The notes beneath the pieces were generated by a model. That model was not told the DNA's origin, did no database searches, and saw nothing but the letters and a program-made list of their open reading frames with translations. The position numbers and the translations under genes are program-made. From the IMG/VR virus record IMGVR_UViG_3300035703_000337, positions 1 to 29,500 of that record: a stretch of DNA of 29,500 bases; one strand, given 5' to 3'. This stretch comes from a virus. Of this stretch, positions 2,155 through 29,500 are shown piece by piece (positions within the stretch are counted from its first letter, which is position 1; each line of letters begins with the position of its first letter).

Positions 2155-2203
2155 TCCTACTCTCTACTGATCCGTACTAAACTTACACAGTCACCCACTA
2201 ACC

Positions 2204-2509
2204 ATGTCCACCACCGTTTTCACCTGGCACATCGCCCAACTGGAGCGCGAGACCGCTGACGGTTACGTTTTCGTGGCCCACTACACCGTCGATGCCAACG
2301 ACGGCACCTATAACGCTGGCGCCTACGGCTCGATCGGCTTCGAGCGTCCCGAGGAAGATCTGATTCCCTTTGCTGATCTCACCGAAGAGATCGTCATCGG
2401 CTGGGTCAAGGAACGGTTGGACGTTGAGCAAATCGAGGCAGCACTGCAAAGCCAACTCGACGAGCAGCGCCATCCCAGCAAGGCCAGTGGGCTGCCCTGG
2501 GCTGCTTAG
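2204..2509 (+). CDS. DUF7936-like small phage protein
   Basis: A 101-residue soluble protein. The N-terminal half alternates hydrophobic and polar residues (TVFTWHIAQLER, YVFVAHYTVDANDGTY, GAYGSIGFE) and is probably a beta sandwich. The C-terminal half is helical (DLTEEIVIGWVKERL) and ends PWAA. I recognise this architecture as a small protein that commonly sits between tail-fibre and lysis genes of phages (DUF7936-like); its function is not established. The 49-bp gap before it holds a TAAACT box at 2178-2183 that resembles a -10 element. Its TAG stop is part of a TTAGACTAGTGG sequence that recurs after the endolysin gene. Confidence 0.6.
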   Translation: MSTTVFTWHIAQLERETADGYVFVAHYTVDANDGTYNAGAYGSIGFERPEEDLIPFADLTEEIVIGWVKERLDVEQIEAALQSQLDEQRHPSKASGLPWAA

Positions 2510-2518
2510 ACTAGTGGC

Positions 2519-2910: not shown

Positions 2911-3964
2911 AGCACCGATCAAACCCAGCGACCTGTTCCGGTACTGGAAGGCGCTGCCGCATCAGCAGGCGGCGATCGTTGAATTGGAAGCTGAACTGTT
3001 AAAGGTTGCGCCTGATTTGTTTAATAGGGATCAGCCATGGTTCCAGACATGGAGCCAATGCGGCAAAGTGCACAGTTATGACGCAGCCGTCAAGCTGATC
3101 AAAGAGTTCGAGGGCTGTCACCTGTCGGCCTACCCCGATCCGCTCAGTGGCGGCGAGCCATGGACCATCGGCTACGGCACCACCAAATACAGCGACGGCC
3201 GCAAGGTGCAGCGCGGCGACAAGATCACCGTCATTGACGCCAACAGGCTGCTGGGCCTTGAGATCGAGCGCGTCGCCGAGAAGCTGCGGGCGACCGTGCC
3301 GTTCTGGAATGCCATGTCCGGCGACAAGCAGTCTGCGCTGATCAGCTTCGCCTACAACCTGGGCAGCGGCTTCTACGGCACCACCGGATTCGAGACGATC
3401 AGCAAGTGCCTAAAGGACAAGGACTGGGCAGCGGTGCCTGATGCGTTGCTGCTGTACCGCAACCCTGGCACCAACGTTGAGGCCGGCCTGCTGCGCCGCA
3501 GGCAGGCTGAGGGTCGGTTATGGGGCGTCGAGCAGCAAACCGCCAAGTTGACACCGAGCAGCCCGTTTACGGCACGAATCACACCACACATTACCCTGGG
3601 CGAGTTTGCACTCGGGCGGGATGCGCGGCGCTTCGACCACCAGTACCAAGTCGACACCGCAGCCGAGCTGGCGGCGTTCCTCGAGCGGGTGCGCGGCGCG
3701 TTCGGCGGCAAGCCAGTGGTGATCACCAGCGGCTACAGGCCAGCAGCGATCAACCGCTCAGTTGGCGGTGCCAGCAGCAGTGAGCACCTATACGACGCGC
3801 CAAGCGTCGGTGCAGTGGACTTCTACATCCAAGGCGCCGACATCAACGCAGTCCAGGCATGGTGCGACAAGAACTGGCCCTACAGCATTGGATACGGCGC
3901 ACCTAAAGGGTTCGTGCACCTTGGCGTCCGCAAAGGCCGGCCTCGCGTGCGCTGGGACTATTAG
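2903..3964 (+). CDS. Two-domain endolysin: GH24 muramidase + M15 peptidase
   Basis: A 353-residue protein starting at a GTG inside the end of the upstream small membrane-protein gene. Residues 58-210 form a T4-lysozyme-type (GH24) muramidase. Glu70 in FEG, Asp79 in YPDP and Thr88 in WTIGYGTT match the E-D-T catalytic triad order; Glu and Asp are nine residues apart, as in T4 lysozyme. Residues about 225-353 resemble a peptidase M15 / D-Ala-D-Ala carboxypeptidase domain: VVITSGYRP at 272-280, then SSEH (His295), GAVDFY (Asp306) and KGFVHLG (His339), the expected zinc ligands. The enzyme would cut both the glycan backbone and the peptide stem of peptidoglycan. No signal peptide is visible, so export depends on a holin. 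It is longer than single-domain GH24 endolysins because of the fused peptidase. Confidence 0.9.
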   Translation: MAKAPIKPSDLFRYWKALPHQQAAIVELEAELLKVAPDLFNRDQPWFQTWSQCGKVHSYDAAVKLIKEFEGCHLSAYPDPLSGGEPWTIGYGTTKYSDGRKVQRGDKITVIDANRLLGLEIERVAEKLRATVPFWNAMSGDKQSALISFAYNLGSGFYGTTGFETISKCLKDKDWAAVPDALLLYRNPGTNVEAGLLRRRQAEGRLWGVEQQTAKLTPSSPFTARITPHITLGEFALGRDARRFDHQYQVDTAAELAAFLERVRGAFGGKPVVITSGYRPAAINRSVGGASSSEHLYDAPSVGAVDFYIQGADINAVQAWCDKNWPYSIGYGAPKGFVHLGVRKGRPRVRWDY

Positions 3965-3992
3965 ACTACTGGTGTAAGCCGCTACACACGGC

Positions 3993-5389: not shown

Positions 5390-6286
5390 TCACCGTGACG
5401 CTTGATCGTTGGTTCCAAGGGGCGTGTCCGTCAGGGGGTTGCTCATCAGCATACGGATGCGGCCGACGCCGCGCTTATAGATGTCGTAAAGGGCAGCCTT
5501 AGAGATGCCATACTCGCGCTCAAGTTGCGCCCATGTGACGGCTGGATAACATGACCGCGCTTCAATAACTGCTTTGGTTCTATCGTCTAGGTACTGGTCA
5601 ACGTAACGCAGCATGATTTGCACATCTTGGCTGATGTCATTGTCAACTACATTGGGATCAGCAATGGTGTCAACAATGCTGTGGCCTTCTGAGTTGTTGA
5701 CCTGTTGGTCGATGCTGGTAACGGTATAGGTCTGCCGGAGCAGATTGGATAACTCGCCAGGGTCCATGTCGATCTCTTCTGCCACTCTGGTAATGCTCGG
5801 TTGGTAACCGAGTTGATGGCTCAGATCTTGGATCGTGCGGTTGATCTTGTACATCGTCTCGTGTACACCGATCGGCAGCCGGATAATGGCATCGCTGCTG
5901 ATCAGTGCACGCGTGATGCCTTGGCGGATCCACCAGTAGGCGTAGGTCGAGAACTTGTAGCCGCGGCTTGGGTCAAACAGCTCAACAGCACGAGCTAGGC
6001 CGATGTTGCCCTCCTGGATCAGGTCGAGTAGCTCCATGGTCTTGTTGTTGCGCTTGTCGTACCTGCGGGCGACATGCACGACCAGTTGCAAGTTGCACTG
6101 GATAAACCGCTGGCGGGCGCGTTCACCGCTGCGCTTCTCACGCTGTTCGGCATTGGTCAGCGGGCGATCCAGTGATTGCAGCTCACGCAGTCGTTGCACG
6201 CGTCTGCCGAGTTGTATCTCTTGCTGCGGTGTCAACAGTGGATACTTGGCGATACTGTTGAGATAATCCTTGATGCTGTCAGACAT
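5390..6286 (-). CDS. Phage-encoded sigma-70 family factor
   Basis: A 298-residue factor that would redirect host RNA polymerase. Region 1.2 is at residues 2-31 (DSIKDYLNSIAKYPLLTPQQE). Region 2 is at 61-137 and contains DLIQEGNIGLARAVELFDPS and KFSTYAYWWIRQGITRAL, nearly the canonical cyanobacterial group 1/2 sequence used for core binding and -10 melting, followed by IRLP. Region 3 spans about 138-195 and region 4 about 225-281. The region 4.2 helix-turn-helix (TWAQLEREYGISKAALYDIYKRG) keeps the scaffold, but its recognition helix differs strongly from the usual RERIRQIE pattern, so -35 specificity is probably altered. Group 1 region 1.1 is absent. It is the last gene on the minus strand of the early region, separated from dCTP deaminase by an antisense gene. 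It could turn on the late plus-strand genes; that is inference. Confidence 0.9.
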   Translation of the reverse strand: MSDSIKDYLNSIAKYPLLTPQQEIQLGRRVQRLRELQSLDRPLTNAEQREKRSGERARQRFIQCNLQLVVHVARRYDKRNNKTMELLDLIQEGNIGLARAVELFDPSRGYKFSTYAYWWIRQGITRALISSDAIIRLPIGVHETMYKINRTIQDLSHQLGYQPSITRVAEEIDMDPGELSNLLRQTYTVTSIDQQVNNSEGHSIVDTIADPNVVDNDISQDVQIMLRYVDQYLDDRTKAVIEARSCYPAVTWAQLEREYGISKAALYDIYKRGVGRIRMLMSNPLTDTPLGTNDQASR

Positions 6287-7946: not shown

Positions 7947-8176
7947 TGGCCCTCCAGCTCGGCGGCGATGGCGTGCAACGCGTCACGAGTCCAGTTGATA
8001 CTGAGACTGTGCGCTGCATCGGGTTCTATTCGCCCTTCCCATTGGGCGGCTAATACCTGATCCGCAGCAGCTCGCAAGGCGGCGGCAAGGATTAGGCGAG
8101 AGTCAGTGCAGGGATGCAGGTTGCTAGCATCCAGCACCGCCTGCGCGGCGGGGGAGAAGTCAGTCATTGAGGCCAT
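7943..8176 (-). CDS. Small hypothetical helical protein
   Basis: 77 residues from the ATG at 8176, preceded by a good Shine-Dalgarno (GAGGAG, 7 nt upstream). An in-frame ATG at 8167 would give 74 residues and matches the ATGACTGA start pattern of neighbouring genes. The sequence is helical (FSPAAQAVLDASN, LILAAALRAAADQVLAAQ, DALHAIAAELEG), a style shared with other phage small proteins. Function unknown. It overlaps the RlpA-like gene by 4 bp. Confidence 0.55.
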   Translation of the reverse strand: MASMTDFSPAAQAVLDASNLHPCTDSRLILAAALRAAADQVLAAQWEGRIEPDAAHSLSINWTRDALHAIAAELEGQ

Positions 8177-8348
8177 TGAGATACTCCTCTTGCGAAATCG
8201 TTGGCAGTGGATCACCAAGTGCTTCAAGTGCGCAGATCATGCACCAGTGCCCTTCGTGACCTTTGATGTTGCTTGCGATGGTGTGCGGGTGTGTTCCATG
8301 CTTGGGGCAGATCACACCGGGGCCGGCCCATGTATAGAAGTCAGTCAT
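8160..8348 (-). CDS. Small Cys/His protein, zinc-finger candidate
   Basis: 62 residues from the ATG at 8348 (MTDFYTWAGPGVICP). CPKHGTHPHTIA and HEGHWCMICALEALG give a Cys/His arrangement that could hold one zinc. It starts with ATGACTGA, whose ATG overlaps the upstream gene's stop (ATGA). Function unknown; the tail (EEYLNGLND) is acidic. Confidence 0.55.
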   Translation of the reverse strand: MTDFYTWAGPGVICPKHGTHPHTIASNIKGHEGHWCMICALEALGDPLPTISQEEYLNGLND

Positions 8349-8590
8349 TTTTGATAGCAGCGAATAGATTGGCAAATTTCATTGCGACGTTTTTGCGTTT
8401 GCCAGACAAGCTCTATGTAAGCATTGATGACAGAAGCAGCTAGAAGTCGCTCTTGCATGTTGAAGATGTATCCCCTTTGCATATGCCTAAGCGTATGCTC
8501 TAGGTCGCGCAATTGATTTCCAGGAATAGGCCACACTGTTCCGTCAAAATGAACAAATGGGCTGCCTTCAAGAGTGGCGGCGTCAGTCAT
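8345..8590 (-). CDS. Small hypothetical protein (81 aa)
   Basis: Starts MTDAATLEGSPFVHFDGT, with a G-rich stretch just upstream that may act as ribosome binding site. The first third is beta-like (FVHFDGTVWPIPG) and the rest helical (LRDLEHTLRHMQRGYIFNMQ, LLAASVINAYIELVWQT). Codon use looks slightly more AT-rich than the neighbours (8350-8520), which may mean separate acquisition. ATGA overlaps at both ends support translation. Unrecognised. Confidence 0.5.
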   Translation of the reverse strand: MTDAATLEGSPFVHFDGTVWPIPGNQLRDLEHTLRHMQRGYIFNMQERLLAASVINAYIELVWQTQKRRNEICQSIRCYQK

Positions 8591-8934
8591 TGATCCCCCC
8601 AGTGGGCAAGGACAGCGCGGGCATATTCCAGCGCAACGGTGTTGAGCACAACGCGAAACAGACCTGGCTCGACCTGATCGCCAGTGGCTGCGGAGTACAC
8701 ACTGGAAACCGCCGCAAACTCATCCCGCATAGTCTCGGGCATCAGTTCCAACAGCTCATCGTCTGTTGGCTCGGGCTTGGTGTTCTGCTTGAGAAACTCC
8801 ACCATCAACCGATGAGCTTCACCAGCGTCAGCAATGAACTGGCCCCGATAGTGGAAGCCTTCTTTGTCGAGGCGCAACACCTCTTCAGTTGGTGGAGAAT
8901 TGAATGTGATGCAGTTGGTGGGGTGATCAGTCAT
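8587..8934 (-). CDS. Hypothetical phage protein (115 aa)
   Basis: 115 residues from the ATG at 8934 (MTDHPTNCITFNSP). The segment EVLRLDKEGFHYRGQFIADA followed by EAHRLMVEFLKQN is a motif I associate with small proteins in cyanophage genomes. The C-terminal half is helical (ELLELMPETMRDEFAAVS; FRVVLNTVALEYARAVLAHW). An in-frame upstream start (8988) exists, but the MTD start fits the pattern of the cluster. Function unknown. It overlaps the next gene upstream by 8 bp (ATGACTGA). Confidence 0.6.
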   Translation of the reverse strand: MTDHPTNCITFNSPPTEEVLRLDKEGFHYRGQFIADAGEAHRLMVEFLKQNTKPEPTDDELLELMPETMRDEFAAVSSVYSAATGDQVEPGLFRVVLNTVALEYARAVLAHWGDQ

Positions 8935-9238
8935 GGGAGCAGTACCGGGGGTGGAGGTTGCCGTGTTCATCGGTGAAGCCAGCTTCATGCAGGAACTGCC
9001 GAGCGGCTTCTTTGTCGCCAGCTAAGGCGCGATCGAGCAGGGTTGGAGCGGTGAGTTCAGTGGCAAACTCTTCAAGAGTGTCAGTCGTGACTCCGTGCCA
9101 ACACTCGTCACCATCGCTGTAGTTGTCCCAGGTGACGGCCAGGTGCAGCAGCACATTGGCAATGCCCTCGCGAACGCTTTTGCCTTCCTCAAACTCTTCG
9201 ATCAGGCGCTGGGCGCGGGAGGTGAGATGGTCAGTCAT
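8927..9238 (-). CDS. Hypothetical phage protein (103 aa)
   Basis: 103 residues from the ATG at 9238 (MTDHLTSRAQRLIEEFEEGK). GGAG lies 7 nt upstream. Helical N-terminus (REGIANVLLHLAVTW), an acidic middle (NYSDGDECWHG), and a C-terminus with an ankyrin-like look (LLDRALAGDKEAARQFLHEA) ending in HGNLHPRYCSHD. No family assigned. The start shares the 8-bp ATGACTGA overlap with the upstream 59-aa gene. Confidence 0.55.
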   Translation of the reverse strand: MTDHLTSRAQRLIEEFEEGKSVREGIANVLLHLAVTWDNYSDGDECWHGVTTDTLEEFATELTAPTLLDRALAGDKEAARQFLHEAGFTDEHGNLHPRYCSHD

Positions 9239-9410
9239 TGATAGGCTCCATTGCAACGTGGATGTCGCGGCCGATGCCGCAGGTGCCCCACAGGACAAAC
9301 ATGCGACGCAGGCCAGGGATGACGTCTTTGCCGTCGATCTTCACCGATGGCTGAGAGTTGATCCACCACAGCTCACCGATGCGGCCTTGATTGGAGTTGA
9401 TGTTGATCAT
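9231..9410 (-). CDS. Short hypothetical protein (59 aa)
   Basis: ATG at 9410, TGA at 9231-9233. Begins MININSNQGRIGELWWIN, then KIDGKDVIPGLRRMFVLWGT and ends VAMEPIND. It fills exactly the gap between two called genes, overlapping the upstream gene by ATGA and the downstream gene by ATGACTGA; that fit is the main evidence. Probably a small beta-rich domain; function unknown. Confidence 0.5.
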   Translation of the reverse strand: MININSNQGRIGELWWINSQPSVKIDGKDVIPGLRRMFVLWGTCGIGRDIHVAMEPIND

Positions 9411-9766
9411 TCGGGGAGGGCCTCCAGTGCGCGGCGGATGGTGCGGTGGCGTTCAATGCTGCTCATGTTCAGGATCGTGTCTCCCGTGGGGCCTGTCTCC
9501 GGCAATGGATCCGGTCCCAGCGCTTCCAGCGCCTGCTCCTTCAAACTCGGCGGCTTAGGGCGGCGGGCGGCGCGGAGGTCGGAGGGACCAGCCATGAAAT
9601 CGCGGTCCATCAGCTCACAGCACGCCTCCAGCTCCTGGTCAGCGCCATATTGGGCGGCGCGGGTGGCGATGTACTGGTGTACCTGATTGACCAAATAGCG
9701 AAAGGTGTTAGCTTCTTTCACCCATTGCTCTACCAGCTCCGGCGGTGGGGTGATGGGATGGGTCAT
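9407..9766 (-). CDS. Hypothetical phage protein (119 aa)
   Basis: 119 residues, MTHPITPPPELVEQWVKEAN at the N-terminus, a helical centre (AAQYGADQELEACCELMDRD), a Pro-rich basic linker (AARRPKPPSLKEQALEALGP) and a C-terminal helix (HRTIRRALEALPE). I recognise this composition from a widespread unnamed family in cyanophages and prophages. No motif for activity. ATGA overlaps at both ends. Confidence 0.6.
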   Translation of the reverse strand: MTHPITPPPELVEQWVKEANTFRYLVNQVHQYIATRAAQYGADQELEACCELMDRDFMAGPSDLRAARRPKPPSLKEQALEALGPDPLPETGPTGDTILNMSSIERHRTIRRALEALPE

Positions 9767-13383: not shown

Positions 13384-13411
13384 ATCCTACACCATGCGCC
13401 GCCGTGGTCAA
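13384..13411 (-). promoter_or_regulatory. Sigma-70-like promoter inside the early operon
   Basis: On the minus strand: -35 TTGACC (13411-13406, 5 of 6 to TTGACA), 16-bp spacer, -10 TAGGAT (13389-13384, 4 of 6 to TATAAT). The -35 overlaps the stop codon of the VRR-NUC gene. Transcription would begin near 13377, about 20 bases before the ATG at 13356, and read through the small genes towards the RecE/Bet/SSB module. The 13 bases CATGGTGTAGGAT recur at 23651-23663 on the plus strand. Confidence 0.6.
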
Positions 13412-13755: not shown

Positions 13756-15114
13756 TCACAGCCCATGCCGCTTGGCCAACCTAGCTTGATAGACCCGCTC
13801 TGCCCAGCCGCGCTTGTAACCGCGTTGCTGTGCTAGTTGGCGGAGGTCCTCGAGGCTTTGGGCATTACCCTGCTCGCGTTTGCGCTCGCGTGTGGTCAGC
13901 TCCTGCAACTCGCCCTCGACCACCTTCAGCTCCCTGGTCTCTTGCGGGGCGAACACATGGCCGCAGTCAGGGCACACCTGCGTGGCGCTCATGCTGGTGG
14001 CAAAGCACACCGGGCACACCTTGACCGATGGCGCACGGTCGGCGTCGCGTTTCTTGATGCCGTCGAGGCTCCAGTCGCGGTTCTCAAGATGGTGCCCGAG
14101 TCGCAGCGTATTGCCGACATGGTCCAGCACCACAGCAGCAGGCTTGCCCGGTGACGGTCTGAGGCAGCGACCGATCATCTGCAGGTGCAGGCTGACGGAC
14201 TGCGTTGGCCGCAGCAGGATGCACCCGCCGACGCTTGGCACGTCCACGCCTTCACCGATGAGACTGCAGGATGTGAGCACCTTGATGCGACCGGTTCCGA
14301 GCGCCTGCAACAGGTCCCTGCGCTGGTCAGTGGTCATGCTGCCGTCAATGCTGGCGGCTGGGATGCCTTGGCTTATGAACAGAGCGGCCACTGCCTCGGC
14401 ATGGGCCACGCTGCAGCAGAACGCGATCGCCGTCTGCCCTGCCAGGTGCTTGCGATAGTGGCTGCAGCAGTCACCCATGATGGTGCCAACGCGCTGCTCA
14501 GCGTCCTTGGTGTCGAAGTCACCCATACGCTTGCGCAGCCCAGTGCTGTCGAACCCCGGCGGTGCCAGCACACGAGCACTGGCGAGGTAGCCGTTGTCAG
14601 TCAACCATGCAGCGCTCGGACCGAGCACCATGGCCTGATAGTGGTCACCAAGGCCGCGGCCGTCACCGCGGCATGGCGTGGCGGTCACACCTAGGACATG
14701 CGCTGTTTGGAAATGCTGCAGCACCGTTGCCCACTGGCCTGCATTGGTGTGATGCGCCTCGTCAACCACCAGCAATTGAAAGAACCCAGCCGGCAGCTTG
14801 TGCAGCCTGCGTGCCAGGGTCTGGACTGAGGCCACCTGCACCGCATGGCTCAGATCCATGCTGCGGCCTGCAGCGATGCGACCATGCGGCACGCCCATAG
14901 ACGTGAGGCTGCGGCTGGCTTGATCCAGCAGCTCGGCACGGTGCACCAAGATGCAGACCCGGTTGCCTTTGCGGGCGGCGGATTGGGCGATGTAGCTGAA
15001 TATGCAAGTCTTGCCGCCGCCGGTGCTAAGGACGCCAAGAACAGACTTTTTGCCGAGTTGGTATTGGAGGCGGATTTCATCCACCATCTTTTGCTGGTAA
15101 GGGCGGAGGTTCAC
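13756..15114 (-). CDS. SF2 DEAD/DEAH-box helicase with zinc ribbon
   Basis: 452 residues, GTG start overlapping the upstream stop (GTGA). Helicase motifs in order: LRPYQQKMVDEI (Q-like, 3-14), STGGGKT (Walker A, 30-36), VVDEAH (116-121), TATP (144-147), then IKVLTSCSLIGEGVDVPSV and QMIGRCLRP (motif VI, 312-320). A four-Cys zinc ribbon CPVC...CPDC (Cys367, 370, 381, 384) follows, and a basic helical tail. The layout resembles phage helicases of the SSL2/RecG-like group that unwind or remodel branched DNA. With the adjoining VRR-NUC and the upstream helicase-methylase it forms a DNA-processing block. Confidence 0.9.
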   Translation of the reverse strand: MNLRPYQQKMVDEIRLQYQLGKKSVLGVLSTGGGKTCIFSYIAQSAARKGNRVCILVHRAELLDQASRSLTSMGVPHGRIAAGRSMDLSHAVQVASVQTLARRLHKLPAGFFQLLVVDEAHHTNAGQWATVLQHFQTAHVLGVTATPCRGDGRGLGDHYQAMVLGPSAAWLTDNGYLASARVLAPPGFDSTGLRKRMGDFDTKDAEQRVGTIMGDCCSHYRKHLAGQTAIAFCCSVAHAEAVAALFISQGIPAASIDGSMTTDQRRDLLQALGTGRIKVLTSCSLIGEGVDVPSVGGCILLRPTQSVSLHLQMIGRCLRPSPGKPAAVVLDHVGNTLRLGHHLENRDWSLDGIKKRDADRAPSVKVCPVCFATSMSATQVCPDCGHVFAPQETRELKVVEGELQELTTRERKREQGNAQSLEDLRQLAQQRGYKRGWAERVYQARLAKRHGL

Positions 15115-17369
15115 ACCAGCTCCCCCTGTTTGTGCGACTCGACGACCTGTAGGTTCTTAACCGCGCAGTTGAAGTAGCTGGGCTTCAGCTCGAAGCCAAC
15201 GAACCGGCGACCCATCTGCAAGCTGACATAGCCCTCGCTGCCGATGCCGGCGAATGGGCTAAGCACCAGATCGCCTGGGTTGCTCCATAGCTGTAGGCCG
15301 CGGCGGATCACCTCAAGCTGAAGCGGGCAGATGTGCCGCTCGTCCTCATTGGCACGCGCGCTGCGGTACTGCAGCGTGTCTGATGGGTTGATGTCCATCC
15401 ATACCGGGCTGGCATACCGCTGCCAGATGTTGATGCTGTCCTTGATCGCGTCGCCGCTCTTGGCTGGTGGATTCTCGCCGGCGAACTCAGTGAATGGACC
15501 AGCGCACGGCTCAGGGTTGTCTCCCAGCTTGCGCACCGTGACCAGATAGTCAGGGATGCCTTGACGGCTCAGAGCCGAATCCTTGCGCACCTGCTTATGC
15601 AGCAGCCCGATCGCTTTGGTGCGCTGCATGGCGGTGACCGGGTCCTTCCAGATGCAAACCTCTGAGTGGAATACAAAGCCAGCCGCTTGGAAGATGCGCA
15701 GCATGTCGCCACGGAAGTCCTTCACACCGATGAACCCGTCGCGTTCTTTGCTGCTGGGCAGATTCATGCAGTGGAAGCTGATCAGCCTGCCGGGCATCAT
15801 CACCCGATGCAACTCATGCGCTAGATAGACGAAGTGATCAAAAAACTCCTGGTCATTGCGGCTGTTGCCCATGTCGCGGTCGCTGTTGGAGTAGGTGTAC
15901 AGCGACGCAAACGGTGGACTGAAGATGCTGTAATGAATGCTGTCTGAGTCGATCTGCTTGATGCTCTCAATGCAATCGCCCATATACAGATCCCAGTTGT
16001 CGCCGGACTTGTGCTCGGTGATGTGAGGCGCAACCTGACGCTGGATCTTTTTTAGTTGTTCCATGGTGGTTTGCTTCATGATGGTGACCATTGACTCAGC
16101 CATTGCGATGCTGTCCGCTTCCTTGCGGCGGATGTTCTCGATCACGCGGCCCTCGGCTACGTCGTAGATGATGTGCGCATTGACCGGGTGCTGCTGCCCG
16201 AATCGCCAGCATCGGCGGATCGCTTGATAGAACGCCTCGTAGCTGTGCGACAGGCCAACGAAGGCGACATTGTGGCAACCCTGGAAGTTGAGCCCGAATC
16301 CAAAGATGCTCGGCTTGCTGACCAGAACGCGGATCTTGCCATCCTGGAAGTCGATCGCAGCACGGCGCTTGTGATCGTCGCTGTCGCTGCCTGACACCTC
16401 AACCGCACCATTGATGGCAGCAGTCAGCGCCTTGGACTCGTCGTTGAGGTCACACCAGATCAGCCATTGGTAGGTGTCGCCATTGGCCAGTGCTGCTGCG
16501 GCATCCACGCGCATCTGCAGCGATGCCTTGCGCACATGCCGCTGATCGCTGAGCGTGCGGGCTTCCATGGCGAACAGCGCCATCTGGCCGGACTCATCAG
16601 GCATCGCCTCGCGTGGCGTCTCAACCGTGCAGTCTTGGATCCGCAGCTCGGGCAAGATGAATCTGCCGTCGTCGTAGCCCAAGTCCGACGGCTTGCGGAT
16701 GGTGACAGCCCAACTGCAGACCCACTCCCAGAACTTGTCTTTGGCGTGACCCTTAAGCCGCCACTTGCTGGTGTCGCCGCCATCGTGGACGAAGAACATG
16801 GCCAGCATCTCAGCCCTGGTCATCACACCGATGAACTCGGCATGGTTGCCCAGCTCCATGTGGTCGTTGGGTGCTGGCGTGGCCGAACAAGCCAGTCGGA
16901 ATGGCGTCTGCGCGAATGACTCGATGATCTGATTGCGGATCTTGCCGGTGTACGCCTTGAGGATGCTGCTCTCATCGAGCACCACACCAGCAAAGCTGCC
17001 CGGATCAAAGTGGCTCAGCTTCTCGTAGTTGGTCACCGTGATGCCGGGCCTGACCTCGCCTTGCGTTGCAGCGAACGCGCATGGGATGCCGAACTTGCTG
17101 CCCTCGCGCACGGTCTGATGCGCCACGGCCAATGGCGCCAACACCAGCACGTTGCCGCCGGTGTGTTGATGCACCTGATGCGCCCACTCAAGCTGCATGG
17201 CGGTCTTGCCCATGCCGCAGTCAGCCCAGATGCAGAACCTGCCAACGCGGCAGGCCATGGTGACGATGTCCCGCTGGAATGGGAACAGCGGCGCGGTGAA
17301 CCGCTGCGGATCAAAGCCAGCAGCAGGGCACGCGGTGGATTTGGAGGCTAGGAAGTCTTTGTAGGTCAT
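15111..17369 (-). CDS. Helicase-DNA methyltransferase fusion
   Basis: 752 residues. Residues 1-430 are an SNF2/SF2-type helicase: FPFQRDIV (Q-like), WADCGMGKTA (Walker A, 48-57), VVLDESSILKAYTG (motif II, Asp132-Glu133), ACSATPAPND (160-169) and QAIRRCWRFGQ (motif VI, 382-392). Residues about 455-752 are a DNA amino-methyltransferase. LYMGDCIESI precedes the catalytic SPPF (484-487), and the AdoMet-binding FAGIGSEG (706-713) is near the C-terminus, i.e. motif IV before motif I as in beta-class enzymes. SPPF is common in N4-cytosine and some N6-adenine enzymes, so the base is undecided. The fusion could translocate on DNA while modifying it, protecting the genome from restriction. It overlaps both neighbours by 4 bp. 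Confidence 0.9.
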   Translation of the reverse strand: MTYKDFLASKSTACPAAGFDPQRFTAPLFPFQRDIVTMACRVGRFCIWADCGMGKTAMQLEWAHQVHQHTGGNVLVLAPLAVAHQTVREGSKFGIPCAFAATQGEVRPGITVTNYEKLSHFDPGSFAGVVLDESSILKAYTGKIRNQIIESFAQTPFRLACSATPAPNDHMELGNHAEFIGVMTRAEMLAMFFVHDGGDTSKWRLKGHAKDKFWEWVCSWAVTIRKPSDLGYDDGRFILPELRIQDCTVETPREAMPDESGQMALFAMEARTLSDQRHVRKASLQMRVDAAAALANGDTYQWLIWCDLNDESKALTAAINGAVEVSGSDSDDHKRRAAIDFQDGKIRVLVSKPSIFGFGLNFQGCHNVAFVGLSHSYEAFYQAIRRCWRFGQQHPVNAHIIYDVAEGRVIENIRRKEADSIAMAESMVTIMKQTTMEQLKKIQRQVAPHITEHKSGDNWDLYMGDCIESIKQIDSDSIHYSIFSPPFASLYTYSNSDRDMGNSRNDQEFFDHFVYLAHELHRVMMPGRLISFHCMNLPSSKERDGFIGVKDFRGDMLRIFQAAGFVFHSEVCIWKDPVTAMQRTKAIGLLHKQVRKDSALSRQGIPDYLVTVRKLGDNPEPCAGPFTEFAGENPPAKSGDAIKDSINIWQRYASPVWMDINPSDTLQYRSARANEDERHICPLQLEVIRRGLQLWSNPGDLVLSPFAGIGSEGYVSLQMGRRFVGFELKPSYFNCAVKNLQVVESHKQGELV

Positions 17370-17542: not shown

Positions 17543-17609
17543 GCTTGCAACGCGTGGCCCTGCAACCCTAGCGCAGCCCGGTAGACTGCGCAAGTAACCG
17601 CTAGGAACC
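17543..17609. promoter_or_regulatory. Divergent promoter/operator region
   Basis: This 67-bp gap separates the leftward operon from the rightward RHH-primase pair, so both must be transcribed from here or nearby. On the minus strand TTGCGC, a 17-bp spacer and TAGGGT form a weak -35/-10 pair. On the plus strand TAGACT at 17582-17587 is a -10-like box 23 bp before the GTG of the RHH gene, with no good -35. GCGCAG/CTGCGC symmetry around 17570-17592 (GCGCAGCCCGGTAGACTGCGC) could be an operator. Confidence 0.4.
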
Positions 17610-20748: not shown

Positions 20749-20909
20749 TCAACCGGCTTCATGACGCCATGGAGCACGCGCTGGCGTATGCTGCTGCGAT
20801 CCGCGACAATGCCCAAGACGATCAGCAGCCCATCCCTGCTGAACTGGTCGCGTCATTCGCAGCCGATTACAACCGGCTGATTTCAATCCTCACCGAAGCT
20901 GCATCATGA
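20709..20909 (+). CDS. Small helical hypothetical protein (66 aa)
   Basis: 66 residues, MELINIAAKQQPVINRLHDA, EHALAYAAAIRDNAQDDQQP, then IPAELVASFAADYNRLISIL. All-helical, acidic, unrecognised. It overlaps the RHH gene by 40 bp and the clamp gene by 4 bp (ATGA), so it is translated with both. It could be a partner of the sliding clamp, but no clamp-binding motif is obvious. Confidence 0.5.
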   Translation: MELINIAAKQQPVINRLHDAMEHALAYAAAIRDNAQDDQQPIPAELVASFAADYNRLISILTEAAS

Positions 20910-21946
20910 AACTCATCACCACACAGGCTGATCTCAGCCATGCGCTGCGCACCATTGCGCCGGCCATCAGCACCAGCAACAGCCATCCGATCCTGTCCTG
21001 CTGCTTGGTAGCTGCCAGCGGCGGCACCATGACCGTCACCGGCTTCAACCTGGACCTGGGCATCACGGTCACCGTTCCTGCAGCCGTAGACACACCTGGC
21101 ACCGTGGCGCTGCCGTATCGGCTGCTGGCTGGCCTTGTGAGCCGCATGGACGATGGTGAGCCTGTGACGCTGTCAGACGGCTCTGTGACGGCTTCCAGCG
21201 GCTCCTACGGCCTTGCTGTGCAGGATGCGGCGGATTACCCGGCATTGCCCGCTGTAGAGGCTCCTGGCGCTGAGCTGGACCTCACCGCTGGTGTGCGTGC
21301 TTGCATGGCAGCCGTCAGCACTGATGCCAGCAAGCAAATCCTGCAGGGCATTCACCTCGCCGCTGGGTTCATGGAGTCCACCGACGGCCATCGGCTCATG
21401 CGCGTGCCCGTAGCATTGCCTGACGCCATCGACCTGGTGCTACCTGCCAGCACCATGAAGCTGCTGCAGGATCGCACCGTCACCGTGGCTGCAGCCCGCG
21501 GGCAGGCGGTCATCGACGCCGGTGATGGCATCGTCATGTACAGCCGCATCCTCGATGGCACCTATCCCAACGTGGCAGCGCTGATCCCCACCAGCTTCGA
21601 GCACGCCATGACCATGGACCGGCACCGGTTCACCCGATGCCTAGAGCGCGTCGCGTTGATCGCTGAGGCGCACAACAATGCCGTTAAGCTCACGGCCAAA
21701 GGTGGTGCGCTCACCATCACCGCCGAGGCCGATGCCAACAACGGCAAAGAGCTGATCACTTTCGAGGGCAGCGCCGCTGGGTCATGGGCGTTCAACGTGC
21801 ACTACCTGCTCGATGGACTGAAGGCCATGCGATCGGCGGAGACTGTTACACTGTCAGCCAACAGCGCAACAACCCCAGTGGTGTTGACGCCGACTAGCAT
21901 GACAGAGCAGACATACCTCATCATGCCAATTCAAATCCGGGAGTAA
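20906..21946 (+). CDS. dnaN: DnaN-like beta sliding clamp
   Basis: 346 residues, slightly shorter than E. coli DnaN (366). Matching landmarks run the whole length: MKLITTQADLSHALRTIAPA and HPILSCCLV at the start, then VQDAADYPALP, ESTDGHRLMRVPVALP, MYSRILDGTYPNVAALIP, WAFNVHYLLDGLKAM and the C-terminal TYLIMPIQIRE, the equivalent of AYVVMPMRL that lines the partner-binding pocket. It would form a dimeric ring around DNA and tether a polymerase. A bacterial-type clamp is unusual in a phage. It sits between an RHH/small-gene pair and the terminase, not beside a polymerase gene, and no polymerase is visible in the window. It ends 4 bp before the small terminase gene. Confidence 0.9.
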   Translation: MKLITTQADLSHALRTIAPAISTSNSHPILSCCLVAASGGTMTVTGFNLDLGITVTVPAAVDTPGTVALPYRLLAGLVSRMDDGEPVTLSDGSVTASSGSYGLAVQDAADYPALPAVEAPGAELDLTAGVRACMAAVSTDASKQILQGIHLAAGFMESTDGHRLMRVPVALPDAIDLVLPASTMKLLQDRTVTVAAARGQAVIDAGDGIVMYSRILDGTYPNVAALIPTSFEHAMTMDRHRFTRCLERVALIAEAHNNAVKLTAKGGALTITAEADANNGKELITFEGSAAGSWAFNVHYLLDGLKAMRSAETVTLSANSATTPVVLTPTSMTEQTYLIMPIQIRE

Positions 21947-23922: not shown

Positions 23923-24066
23923 ATGACCACCAACACCATGATCAACCGCATCGCATTTCTGACCCTGCTGTTCATGATCTACGCCATTGGCGTCACCATG
24001 GGCCGTGATCAAGCTGCTGAAGCGCATCACAACCACCCGGCCTGCCATCAGGGACTGAAGCCGTAA
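23923..24066 (+). CDS. Small single-pass membrane protein (47 aa)
   Basis: ATG at 23923, TAA at 24064-24066. MTTNTMINRIAFLTLLFMIY then AIGVTMGRD contains one transmembrane helix (about residues 9-27), followed by a His-rich tail (AEAHHNHPACHQGLKP) that could bind metal. It could be a second lysis-associated or superinfection protein; no family recognised. Position between terminase and portal is unusual for a lysis gene. Confidence 0.5.
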   Translation: MTTNTMINRIAFLTLLFMIYAIGVTMGRDQAAEAHHNHPACHQGLKP

Positions 24067-24095
24067 ACTGACACCATTGTCACTAGCTAGCGGTC

Positions 24096-27725: not shown

Positions 27726-27757
27726 TGCCGTCTAGCTGATACGATGGCAGCGTACTT

Positions 27758-27770
27758 AACCCTGCGGGTT
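27758..27770 (+). other. Small hairpin before the scaffold start
   Basis: AACCC-TGC-GGGTT, a five-base-pair stem 4 bases before the scaffold ATG. The loop is small; it may influence translation initiation of the scaffold gene. Confidence 0.3.
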
Positions 27771-27774
27771 ATTC

Positions 27775-28437
27775 ATGTCGGATGAAACACAAACCCAGGA
27801 GCCTGCGGCGACTGAGGATTTGCAACGAAGCGTTGAAGCATTAGAACGCAAGAACAAAGAACTGATTGCCGAACTGCGCGCTGCAAAGAAAGCGCCTGCT
27901 GTGCCTGATGGCGTAGACGTCAATGAACTGCTGGAGTTCAAACGCAACTATGAACAGCAGCAGCTTGAGTCGCAAGGCAAGTACCAAGAAGCCAGGCAGG
28001 CTCTGGAGCAGCAGTTCCGTGAGGCGACGGCGGAGAAGGACCAGCGCATTGCGTCACTTGAGGCCAGAGTGCGCGAGCTGGAGCTGGTCACGCCAGCCGT
28101 AACGGCATTGGCTGACATCGTGCACGACCCAGACATGGTGCTCAAGACCAAGCTGAGTGCCGATCAGATCGAACGCGATCCCGATGGCACTGTCGTCGTG
28201 GTCGATGGCTACCAGCGCACACCAGTGCAGGAATGGGCCAAGACACTGCCGGCATGGATGCAAAAGCAACCCAAGCCGCAAGGCAGCGGCGCGCCATCTG
28301 GTGGTGTCAGCAGCAGCATCCCGACCGGCATGTCAAACCCGTTCAGCCGTGAATCGTTCAACCTGACTGAGCAGGCCAGGCTATTCCGCACCGACCGTGA
28401 TTTGTATGAGCGCATGAAAGCAACCGCCAACCGCTAA
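27775..28437 (+). CDS. Capsid scaffold-like protein
   Basis: 220 residues, no catalytic motif, very charged. Coiled-coil heptads span roughly residues 15-40 (LQRSVEALERKNKELIAELR) and 50-100 (LLEFKRNYEQQQLESQGKYQ; FREATAEKDQRIASLEARVR). A Gly/Ser/Pro-rich linker (about 165-185, PKPQGSGAPSGGVSSSIPTG) and a short C-terminal helix (TEQARLFRTDRDLYERMKAT) follow; the end of a scaffold usually binds the capsid. It stands directly before the major capsid gene. Scaffolds guide prohead assembly and are then removed. Confidence 0.8.
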   Translation: MSDETQTQEPAATEDLQRSVEALERKNKELIAELRAAKKAPAVPDGVDVNELLEFKRNYEQQQLESQGKYQEARQALEQQFREATAEKDQRIASLEARVRELELVTPAVTALADIVHDPDMVLKTKLSADQIERDPDGTVVVVDGYQRTPVQEWAKTLPAWMQKQPKPQGSGAPSGGVSSSIPTGMSNPFSRESFNLTEQARLFRTDRDLYERMKATANR

Positions 28438-28507
28438 GCTGCAACTAACCGGCTGCGCTGGTGATACGGGCTGCGCCCACACCGTAAACCATTTCTGGTG
28501 ATTCATC

Positions 28508-29500
28508 ATGGCGACTCTTCGCTCTGACATCATCATCCCTGAGGTTTTTACGCCTTACGTCATTGAGCAAACCACTCAGCGCGACGCCTTCCTGGCTAGC
28601 GGTGTGGTTCAGCCGATGGCTGAGCTGAACGCTACTGAGGGTGGTGACTACATCAACGTTCCATTCTGGAAGGCCAACCTGTCCGGCGACTTCGAGGTGC
28701 TGTCCGACAGCACCAGCCTGTCGCCTAGCAAGATCACCGCTGACAAGCAAGTTGGCGTGATCCTGCACCGCGGTCGTGCATGGGAAGCCCGCGATCTGGC
28801 AGCCCTGGCTGCTGGCGCTGACCCCATGGCTGCCATCGGCGCCAAGGTGGCTGACTATGTCGCCAACCAGCGGCAGAAGGACCTGATCAAGTGCCTCGAA
28901 GGCGTCTTCGGTAGCCTCACCGGTTCCGATAGCCCTGCGTTCACTGATCTGCGTGTTGACACGACCGGCATGGGCACCCTGAGCCCTCGCACTGTTGCGA
29001 AGGTTCGCGCCAAGCTGGGCGATCAAGGCGACAAGCTGACCGCCGTTGCCATGCACTCGGCGATCTACTACGACCTGGTCGAGCGCAAAGCGATCGACTA
29101 TGTCGCCACTACCGATGCACGCGGCACCACCACCACCCAATCGGGCGGTTCGATTGCTGCTGCTTTCGGCGAGGTAAGCGTTCCGACCTACATGGGTCTG
29201 CGCGTGATCGTCTCGGACGACCTGGCACCTACCAGCACCAACTATCCGGTGTACTTCTTCACTGCCGGCGCTATCGCCAGCGGTGAGCAGATGGCAATGC
29301 AGACCGAAACCGATCGTGACATCCTCGCCAAGAGCGATGCCATGTCGATCGACCTGCACTACTGCTACCACCCGGTTGGCGCTAAGTGGACTGTCGGCAC
29401 TGTCAACCCCACCCAGGCACAACTGGCGACGATTGGCAACTGGACGAAGGTGTACGAGACCAAGAACATTGGTATCGTGCGTGCTACTTGTACTTCTAAC
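28508..29500 (+). CDS. Major capsid protein (partial)
   Basis: Open from the ATG at 28508 to the window edge, 331 residues without a stop. MATLRSDIIIPEVFTPYVIE, TTQRDAFLASGVVQPMAELN, GGDYINVPFWKANLSGDFEV then ADKQVGVILHRGRAWEARDL is the start of an HK97-fold-like major coat protein of the group that accompanies DUF4055 portals. GLRVIVSDDLAP near residue 235 is a further typical segment. The 70-bp leader holds two GGCTGCGC direct repeats (28451-28458 and 28469-28476). The long minus-strand ORF opposite is only a shadow of its codon bias. Confidence 0.85.
   Translation, partial: MATLRSDIIIPEVFTPYVIEQTTQRDAFLASGVVQPMAELNATEGGDYINVPFWKANLSGDFEVLSDSTSLSPSKITADKQVGVILHRGRAWEARDLAALAAGADPMAAIGAKVADYVANQRQKDLIKCLEGVFGSLTGSDSPAFTDLRVDTTGMGTLSPRTVAKVRAKLGDQGDKLTAVAMHSAIYYDLVERKAIDYVATTDARGTTTTQSGGSIAAAFGEVSVPTYMGLRVIVSDDLAPTSTNYPVYFFTAGAIASGEQMAMQTETDRDILAKSDAMSIDLHYCYHPVGAKWTVGTVNPTQAQLATIGNWTKVYETKNIGIVRATCTSN

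Follow-up and report, generated by a model that had tools for sequence, protein, structure and literature searches.

The open reading frame at 5390..6286 (minus strand) of the window, i.e., the whole 29.5-kb IMG/VR virus record analysed here, encodes a sigma-70-family factor with an altered −35 recognition helix. This raises the question of which promoters such a protein would serve, and whether its helix accounts for the −10-like boxes, without a −35 element, that occur at gene boundaries of the same DNA. The predicted product (298 aa, ATG start) matched the RNA polymerase sigma factor family of PHROGs, and its regions 1.2, 2 and 3 scored above the curated Pfam cut-offs, whereas region 4 did not. 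Judging from these regions and from the modelled fold of region 4, the protein most probably belongs to group 1/2 of the sigma-70 family.

The virus is a cyanosiphophage and its hosts are picocyanobacteria. The window encodes terminase, portal, head morphogenesis, scaffold, capsid, tail fibre and endolysin proteins, as well as RecT, an exonuclease, a dCTP deaminase, a primase, a helicase and a DnaN-type clamp. With the "early" and "late" arms assigned from gene content, the sigma factor gene closes the early arm, which lies on the minus strand, and is directed towards the end of the late arm on the plus strand, convergent with the endolysin and phosphoesterase genes. This layout is common to 12 syntenic contigs, with genes, strands and positions taken from our own simple gene finder on IMG/VR contigs that may be incomplete, and it resembles that of the isolates S-CBS1, S-CBS3 and S-LBS1, where the sigma gene also adjoins the lysozyme gene or lies near it. 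Outside the nearest relatives the sigma factor retains 57–71% identity, compared with mostly 70–99% for most of the neighbouring genes. Two further features of the early arm may be mentioned, namely a cassette of about six small genes (8160-9766, minus strand), mostly missing from the 12 syntenic relatives, and a 752-aa protein (15111-17369, minus strand) in which a helicase and a DNA methyltransferase are fused (phrog_16 plus phrog_67); in S-LBS1, helicases and a methylase are annotated as separate genes.

The roles of individual E. coli RpoD residues in −35, core and flap contacts are well established, and they served as the reference for the alignment. Regions 2.3-2.4, the canonical −10 reading segment (residues 110-128; 5903..5959, minus strand), include the stretch KFSTYAYWWIRQGITRAL (residues 111-128) and match Y425-Q437 of the E. 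coli protein identically except for T432Y. The core-binding residues of region 2.2 (D403, Q406, E407 and N409) are conserved as well. The sequence-only reading of this locus had described region 2 as almost canonical, and canonical it proved to be; binding of the host core RNA polymerase is therefore predicted.

Region 4.2 is different. Its recognition helix, ISKAALYDIY (residues 261-270; 5477..5506, minus strand), stands in place of VTRERIRQIE, so that the replacement of TRERIRQIE by SKAALYDIY, and with it the loss of most −35-contacting residues, both proposed from the window alone, hold in the alignment to RpoD. The changes comprise R584K, E585A, R586A, R588Y, Q589D and E591Y, together with the loss of three residues, the F563-G564-I565 loop, while R562 and R599 persist unchanged and K593, K597 and L598 persist as R, R and I, respectively; the canonical contact set R584, E585, R588 and Q589 is thus absent. 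The same applies to the whole clade. In an alignment of 23 cluster representatives (more than 100 sequences, drawn from more than 598 IMG/VR relatives), the −35-reading residues were replaced and the loop was deleted in 23/23, with T/A/S/G/Q at the position of E585, Q/C/Y/H/S at R588 and N/D/E/Q/T/G/S at Q589. R562, R593 and R597 were retained throughout, and L598 and R599 nearly always. All 25 aligned picocyanobacterial (cellular) sigma factors, in contrast, carry R588. Mean entropy within the clade was 1.82 bits at the five −35-contact positions, 0.75 bits at scaffold positions and 0.20 bits in regions 2.3-2.4. In a tree of regions 1.2-3, from which region 4 was left out, the window clade formed one branch with 100/100 support.

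The altered helix does not mean that region 4 has been lost. The C-terminal 89 residues alone aligned in register with Sigma70_r4 at 12.8 bits, i.e., below the cut-off of 24.1, and AlphaFold (mean pLDDT 78) predicted a complete, ordinary sigma-4 domain with helices at 216-232, 235-245, 252-259 and 263-282, the last two forming the helix-turn-helix characteristic of region 4. Foldseek placed SigA and RpoS as the nearest solved folds, with 286-297 aligned columns. Across 84 pairs, dN/dS was about 0.03 in regions 1.2 and 2, 0.10 in region 4, 0.12 in the recognition helix and 0.057 in the C-terminal tail. We therefore rejected the idea of a decaying region 4; with such low ratios, the domain is still in use. 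The tail itself, RMLMSNPLTDTPLG (residues 278-291; 5414..5455, minus strand), is clade-specific, follows the recognition helix and shows the conserved pattern RMLM.NPL..TPLG.

One use of a retained region 4 would be the reading of a different −35 sequence, at promoters outside the class of boxes described below. The low dN/dS of the recognition helix and the conservation of the helix scaffold and of basic positions (R/K584, R593, R597 and R599) are in its favour, but positions 585, 586, 588 and 589 differ among phages that share the same late boxes, no conserved element lies upstream of these boxes, and no other strong hexamer was found at late boundaries, which makes this reading improbable. 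It is somewhat easier, yet still unlikely in our judgement, to imagine that the full, selected region 4 has given up reading a −35 and now serves to contact proteins, e.g., the phage clamp or some other activator of late transcription, so that a normal-looking group-2 sigma factor would operate in the single-element mode of T4 and phiEco32 on TARACT-N6-A promoters. A specific form of this idea is that region 4 and the tail bind another phage protein such as the sliding clamp (20906-21946), in the manner of the replication-coupled late transcription of T4 (gp55, gp33 and gp45). A DnaN-type clamp gene is indeed present both in the window and in relatives carrying this sigma factor, and T4 late transcription pairs promoters having only the downstream element with a clamp (PMC2988020). 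On the other hand, inspection of the tail by eye gave no known clamp-binding motif and no obvious Q-L-x-L-F, and in KBS-S-2A, which shares the boxes, no clamp was matched; we regard the clamp contact, a proposal drawn from sequence, as very improbable.

The boxes were sought at gene boundaries by strand-contrast counting of hexamers in which at most two positions were degenerate, with no preset motif; this replaced an EM motif search of all upstream sequences, which returned only GC-rich coding composition. A generic sigma-70 promoter scan was also set aside, as its sites were no more numerous than in shuffles. Of all the hexamers tested at late boundaries, TARACT came out on top, with 39 sites where 2.0 were expected and none antisense, and no second strong hexamer emerged. 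The broader TARRCT occurred 55 times against 4.6 expected, whereas the count for TARAYT equalled that for TARACT, which means that TARATT is absent and the C at −8 almost invariant. Across nine syntenic genomes, all turned so that the sigma gene lies on the minus strand, the late strand had 51 TARACT sites; 40 of these fell at gene boundaries, including 23 exactly on a stop codon. On the opposite strand only 1 of 11 sites was at a boundary. The early-arm boundaries of the window clade had none. TARACT is not enriched in whole-genome counts, so the signal consists of location and strand. As the genomes are related, sites were collapsed into 20 clusters for the nine genomes and 31 for a larger clade set.

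Within the window (all on the plus strand), TAAACT at 2178..2183 is followed after 26 nt by the gene at 2204, and TAGACT at 3962..3967, on the endolysin stop codon, is conserved in six of the nine genomes compared. A TAGACT at 17582..17587, in the divergent region, precedes the primase gene by 189 nt. The box TAAACT at 24064..24069 precedes the portal gene, as do boxes in KBS-S-2A, S-H1 and two KBS-like contigs, G038 and G039, and the variant TAAGCT at 28435..28440, before the major capsid gene, fits TARRCT. In the capsid and scaffold leaders (28437-28508 and 27735-27774, plus strand), GGCTGCGC/GGGCTGCGCCC and AAGCCTGCGGCTT-like inverted repeats are kept in relatives; the folding of the capsid leader hairpins was not clearly better than that of shuffles, and Rfam had no match in the window, these repeats included.

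An A seven bases after the last T of TARACT was found in 60% of the 31 clade clusters, compared with 26% of 118 control clusters, part of this signal coming from TARACT sites 12 nt before an ATG; the corresponding figures were 67% for other sigma-bearing KBS-like phages (26 clusters) and 88% for records without a sigma factor (eight clusters). The spacing of exactly 12 nt occurs in the window, where TAGACT at 2507..2512 (plus strand) overlaps a stop codon and would place the start on the A of the ATG at 2519, and also in G007 (3563), G010 (15449), G014 (2333) and G012 (32416). Leaderless late mRNAs are predicted from this arrangement. Translation or stop-codon context was rejected as the cause of TARACT, because 17 of the 40 boundary sites lie off stop codons and the A at +1 is enriched. 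Upstream, at spacers of 15-19, none of the 31 clade clusters had TTGACA with at least five of six matches; neither had any cluster in the other two groups, mean matches equalled those at control offsets, and the −35 zone of the information profile was near noise. The −10-only boxes suspected from the window are thus real. The early arm, by comparison, includes a host-type promoter, TTGACC-N16-TAGGAT (13384..13411, minus strand), conserved in most genomes compared. As the early boundaries contain this promoter and no TARACT, two putative promoter classes coexist, an early one with a −35 box and a late TARACT class. Neither the altered-helix clade nor the TARACT late boxes are described in the literature searched, where most subscription journals lay outside coverage.

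Does the helix explain the boxes? KBS-S-2A and the contig G017, whose sigma factors have the canonical helix SRERVRQ, also carry TARACT at late boundaries without a −35 element, in KBS-S-2A at orthologous places (before the portal and tape-measure genes). Conversely, S-CBS1, S-CBS3 and S-LBS1 have a sigma factor and no TARACT late boxes. G038 (48.9 kb) and G039 (38.5 kb) possess KBS-like capsid and portal genes, an endolysin and the early-arm junction, but neither PF04542 nor phrog_351 detected a sigma gene in them. Their boundaries nevertheless have three and five boxes, respectively, at a similar density, and none at early boundaries. The boxes thus follow the lineage of the structural genes and not the helix. 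Since the same boxes accompany canonical sigma factors, the change of the helix did not create the promoter class, and the causal link drawn in the sequence-only reading fails, while its other elements (region 2 kept, −35 contacts lost, boxes without −35) stand. Among these contigs, which span loci L521-L525, an early gene of G038 (L521:17312-17851) weakly matches a D5-like regulator (E 0.0014). Another phage sigma clade (L526-L530, in G043 and G045) has its own type of region 4 (GIAQDTT...) and a conserved C-terminal SSSLIWGWG.

The boxes of G038 and G039 show that something else can read them there, and the host holoenzyme, or another factor, is a strong rival as their reader. TARACT might be recognised by the host enzyme carrying SigA or one of the host's group-2 sigma factors, in which case the phage protein would do something else, such as serving other promoters or displacing the host sigma factor. 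The isolate S-H1, with three boxes and no sigma gene found, points the same way, although its record, in which no endolysin was found either, may be incomplete. Cyanobacterial host promoters also have no strong −35 consensus (PMC3219970), so −10-only boxes are not diagnostic of a special sigma factor. The gene boundaries of the host RCC307 likewise show TANNNT without a strong −35 consensus; this motif is diffuse, with little TARACT (4 vs 2 antisense), unlike the phage boxes with their nearly fixed C at −8, and the host −10 consensus was accordingly rejected as the source of TARACT. Confinement of the boxes to the late strand, with none at early boundaries of the window clade, also argues against a host reader, which we consider possible but less likely than the phage sigma factor.

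We favour, with about even confidence, a phage late sigma factor that works on −10-only TARACT promoters, its region 4.2 freed from base reading and its region 4 kept. The protein would derive from the picocyanobacterial group-2 or the phage sigma pool, would be expressed from the final early-arm gene, would dock on host core RNA polymerase by its ordinary region 2, and would open single-element late promoters of the form TARACT-N6-A(+1), with no −35 box. Being encoded at the end of an early arm that itself has no boxes, it is the natural candidate for the reader of the late class. In the simplest history, single-element late promoters were in place in this phage group before the helix changed; with no −35 to be read, region 4.2 would have been free to change at its base-reading positions, so that the −35-reading surface came under weaker constraint and was then altered. 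Region 4 would have been retained, the probable reasons being docking on the beta flap and a new contact made by the conserved C-terminal tail. That the factor reads TARACT, that it binds the host core, that TARACT starts transcription and that region 4 has this role are what we infer from the sequences. One phage group combines the same late promoter with a canonical sigma factor, with a sigma factor without −35 contacts, or with none found, and this comparative series makes it testable whether −35 recognition was lost because the promoters stopped needing a −35. The TARACT-N6-A signal could also make the late operons of uncultured picocyanobacterial siphophages predictable from sequence.

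Sigma factors of cyanosiphophages are already known and annotated (PMC3751600, PMC6157547, PMC2784084). S-CBS1, S-CBS3, KBS-S-2A and S-LBS1 encode an annotated group-2 sigma factor (rpsD4/RpoD; PHROG 351) with 32-44% identity to that of the window and the same regions 1.2-3; those of S-CBS1 and KBS-S-2A keep SRERxRQ, unlike the window, whereas those of S-CBS3 and S-LBS1 deviate in other ways, and only KBS-S-2A among the four shares the TARACT late boxes. The closest cellular relatives are picocyanobacterial group-2 sigma factors (e.g., L086 and L105; 36-47% identity), all with R588 and most with SR[ED]R in region 4.2, in contrast to the window protein. Further afield, the late sigma factor gp36 of phiEco32 uses −10-only middle and late promoters (tAATGTAtA) (PMC8948821). 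Like the window at the sequence level, phiEco32 has single-element promoters and late genes on the strand opposite the early ones, but its boxes differ and gp36 has no region 4 homology, whereas region 4 of the window protein is present in register, with a predicted fold and under selection. The T4 protein gp55 works without a sigma-4 domain, relying on gp33 and the clamp (PMC2988020); it does without −35 reading, as predicted for the window protein, and both phages encode a sliding clamp, yet gp55 has no sigma-4-equivalent domain and leaves the flap to gp33, while the window encodes a full-length, group-2-like sigma factor. By its putative promoters the window protein is thus like gp36 and gp55, and because its region 4 is present and selected, it is of neither type.
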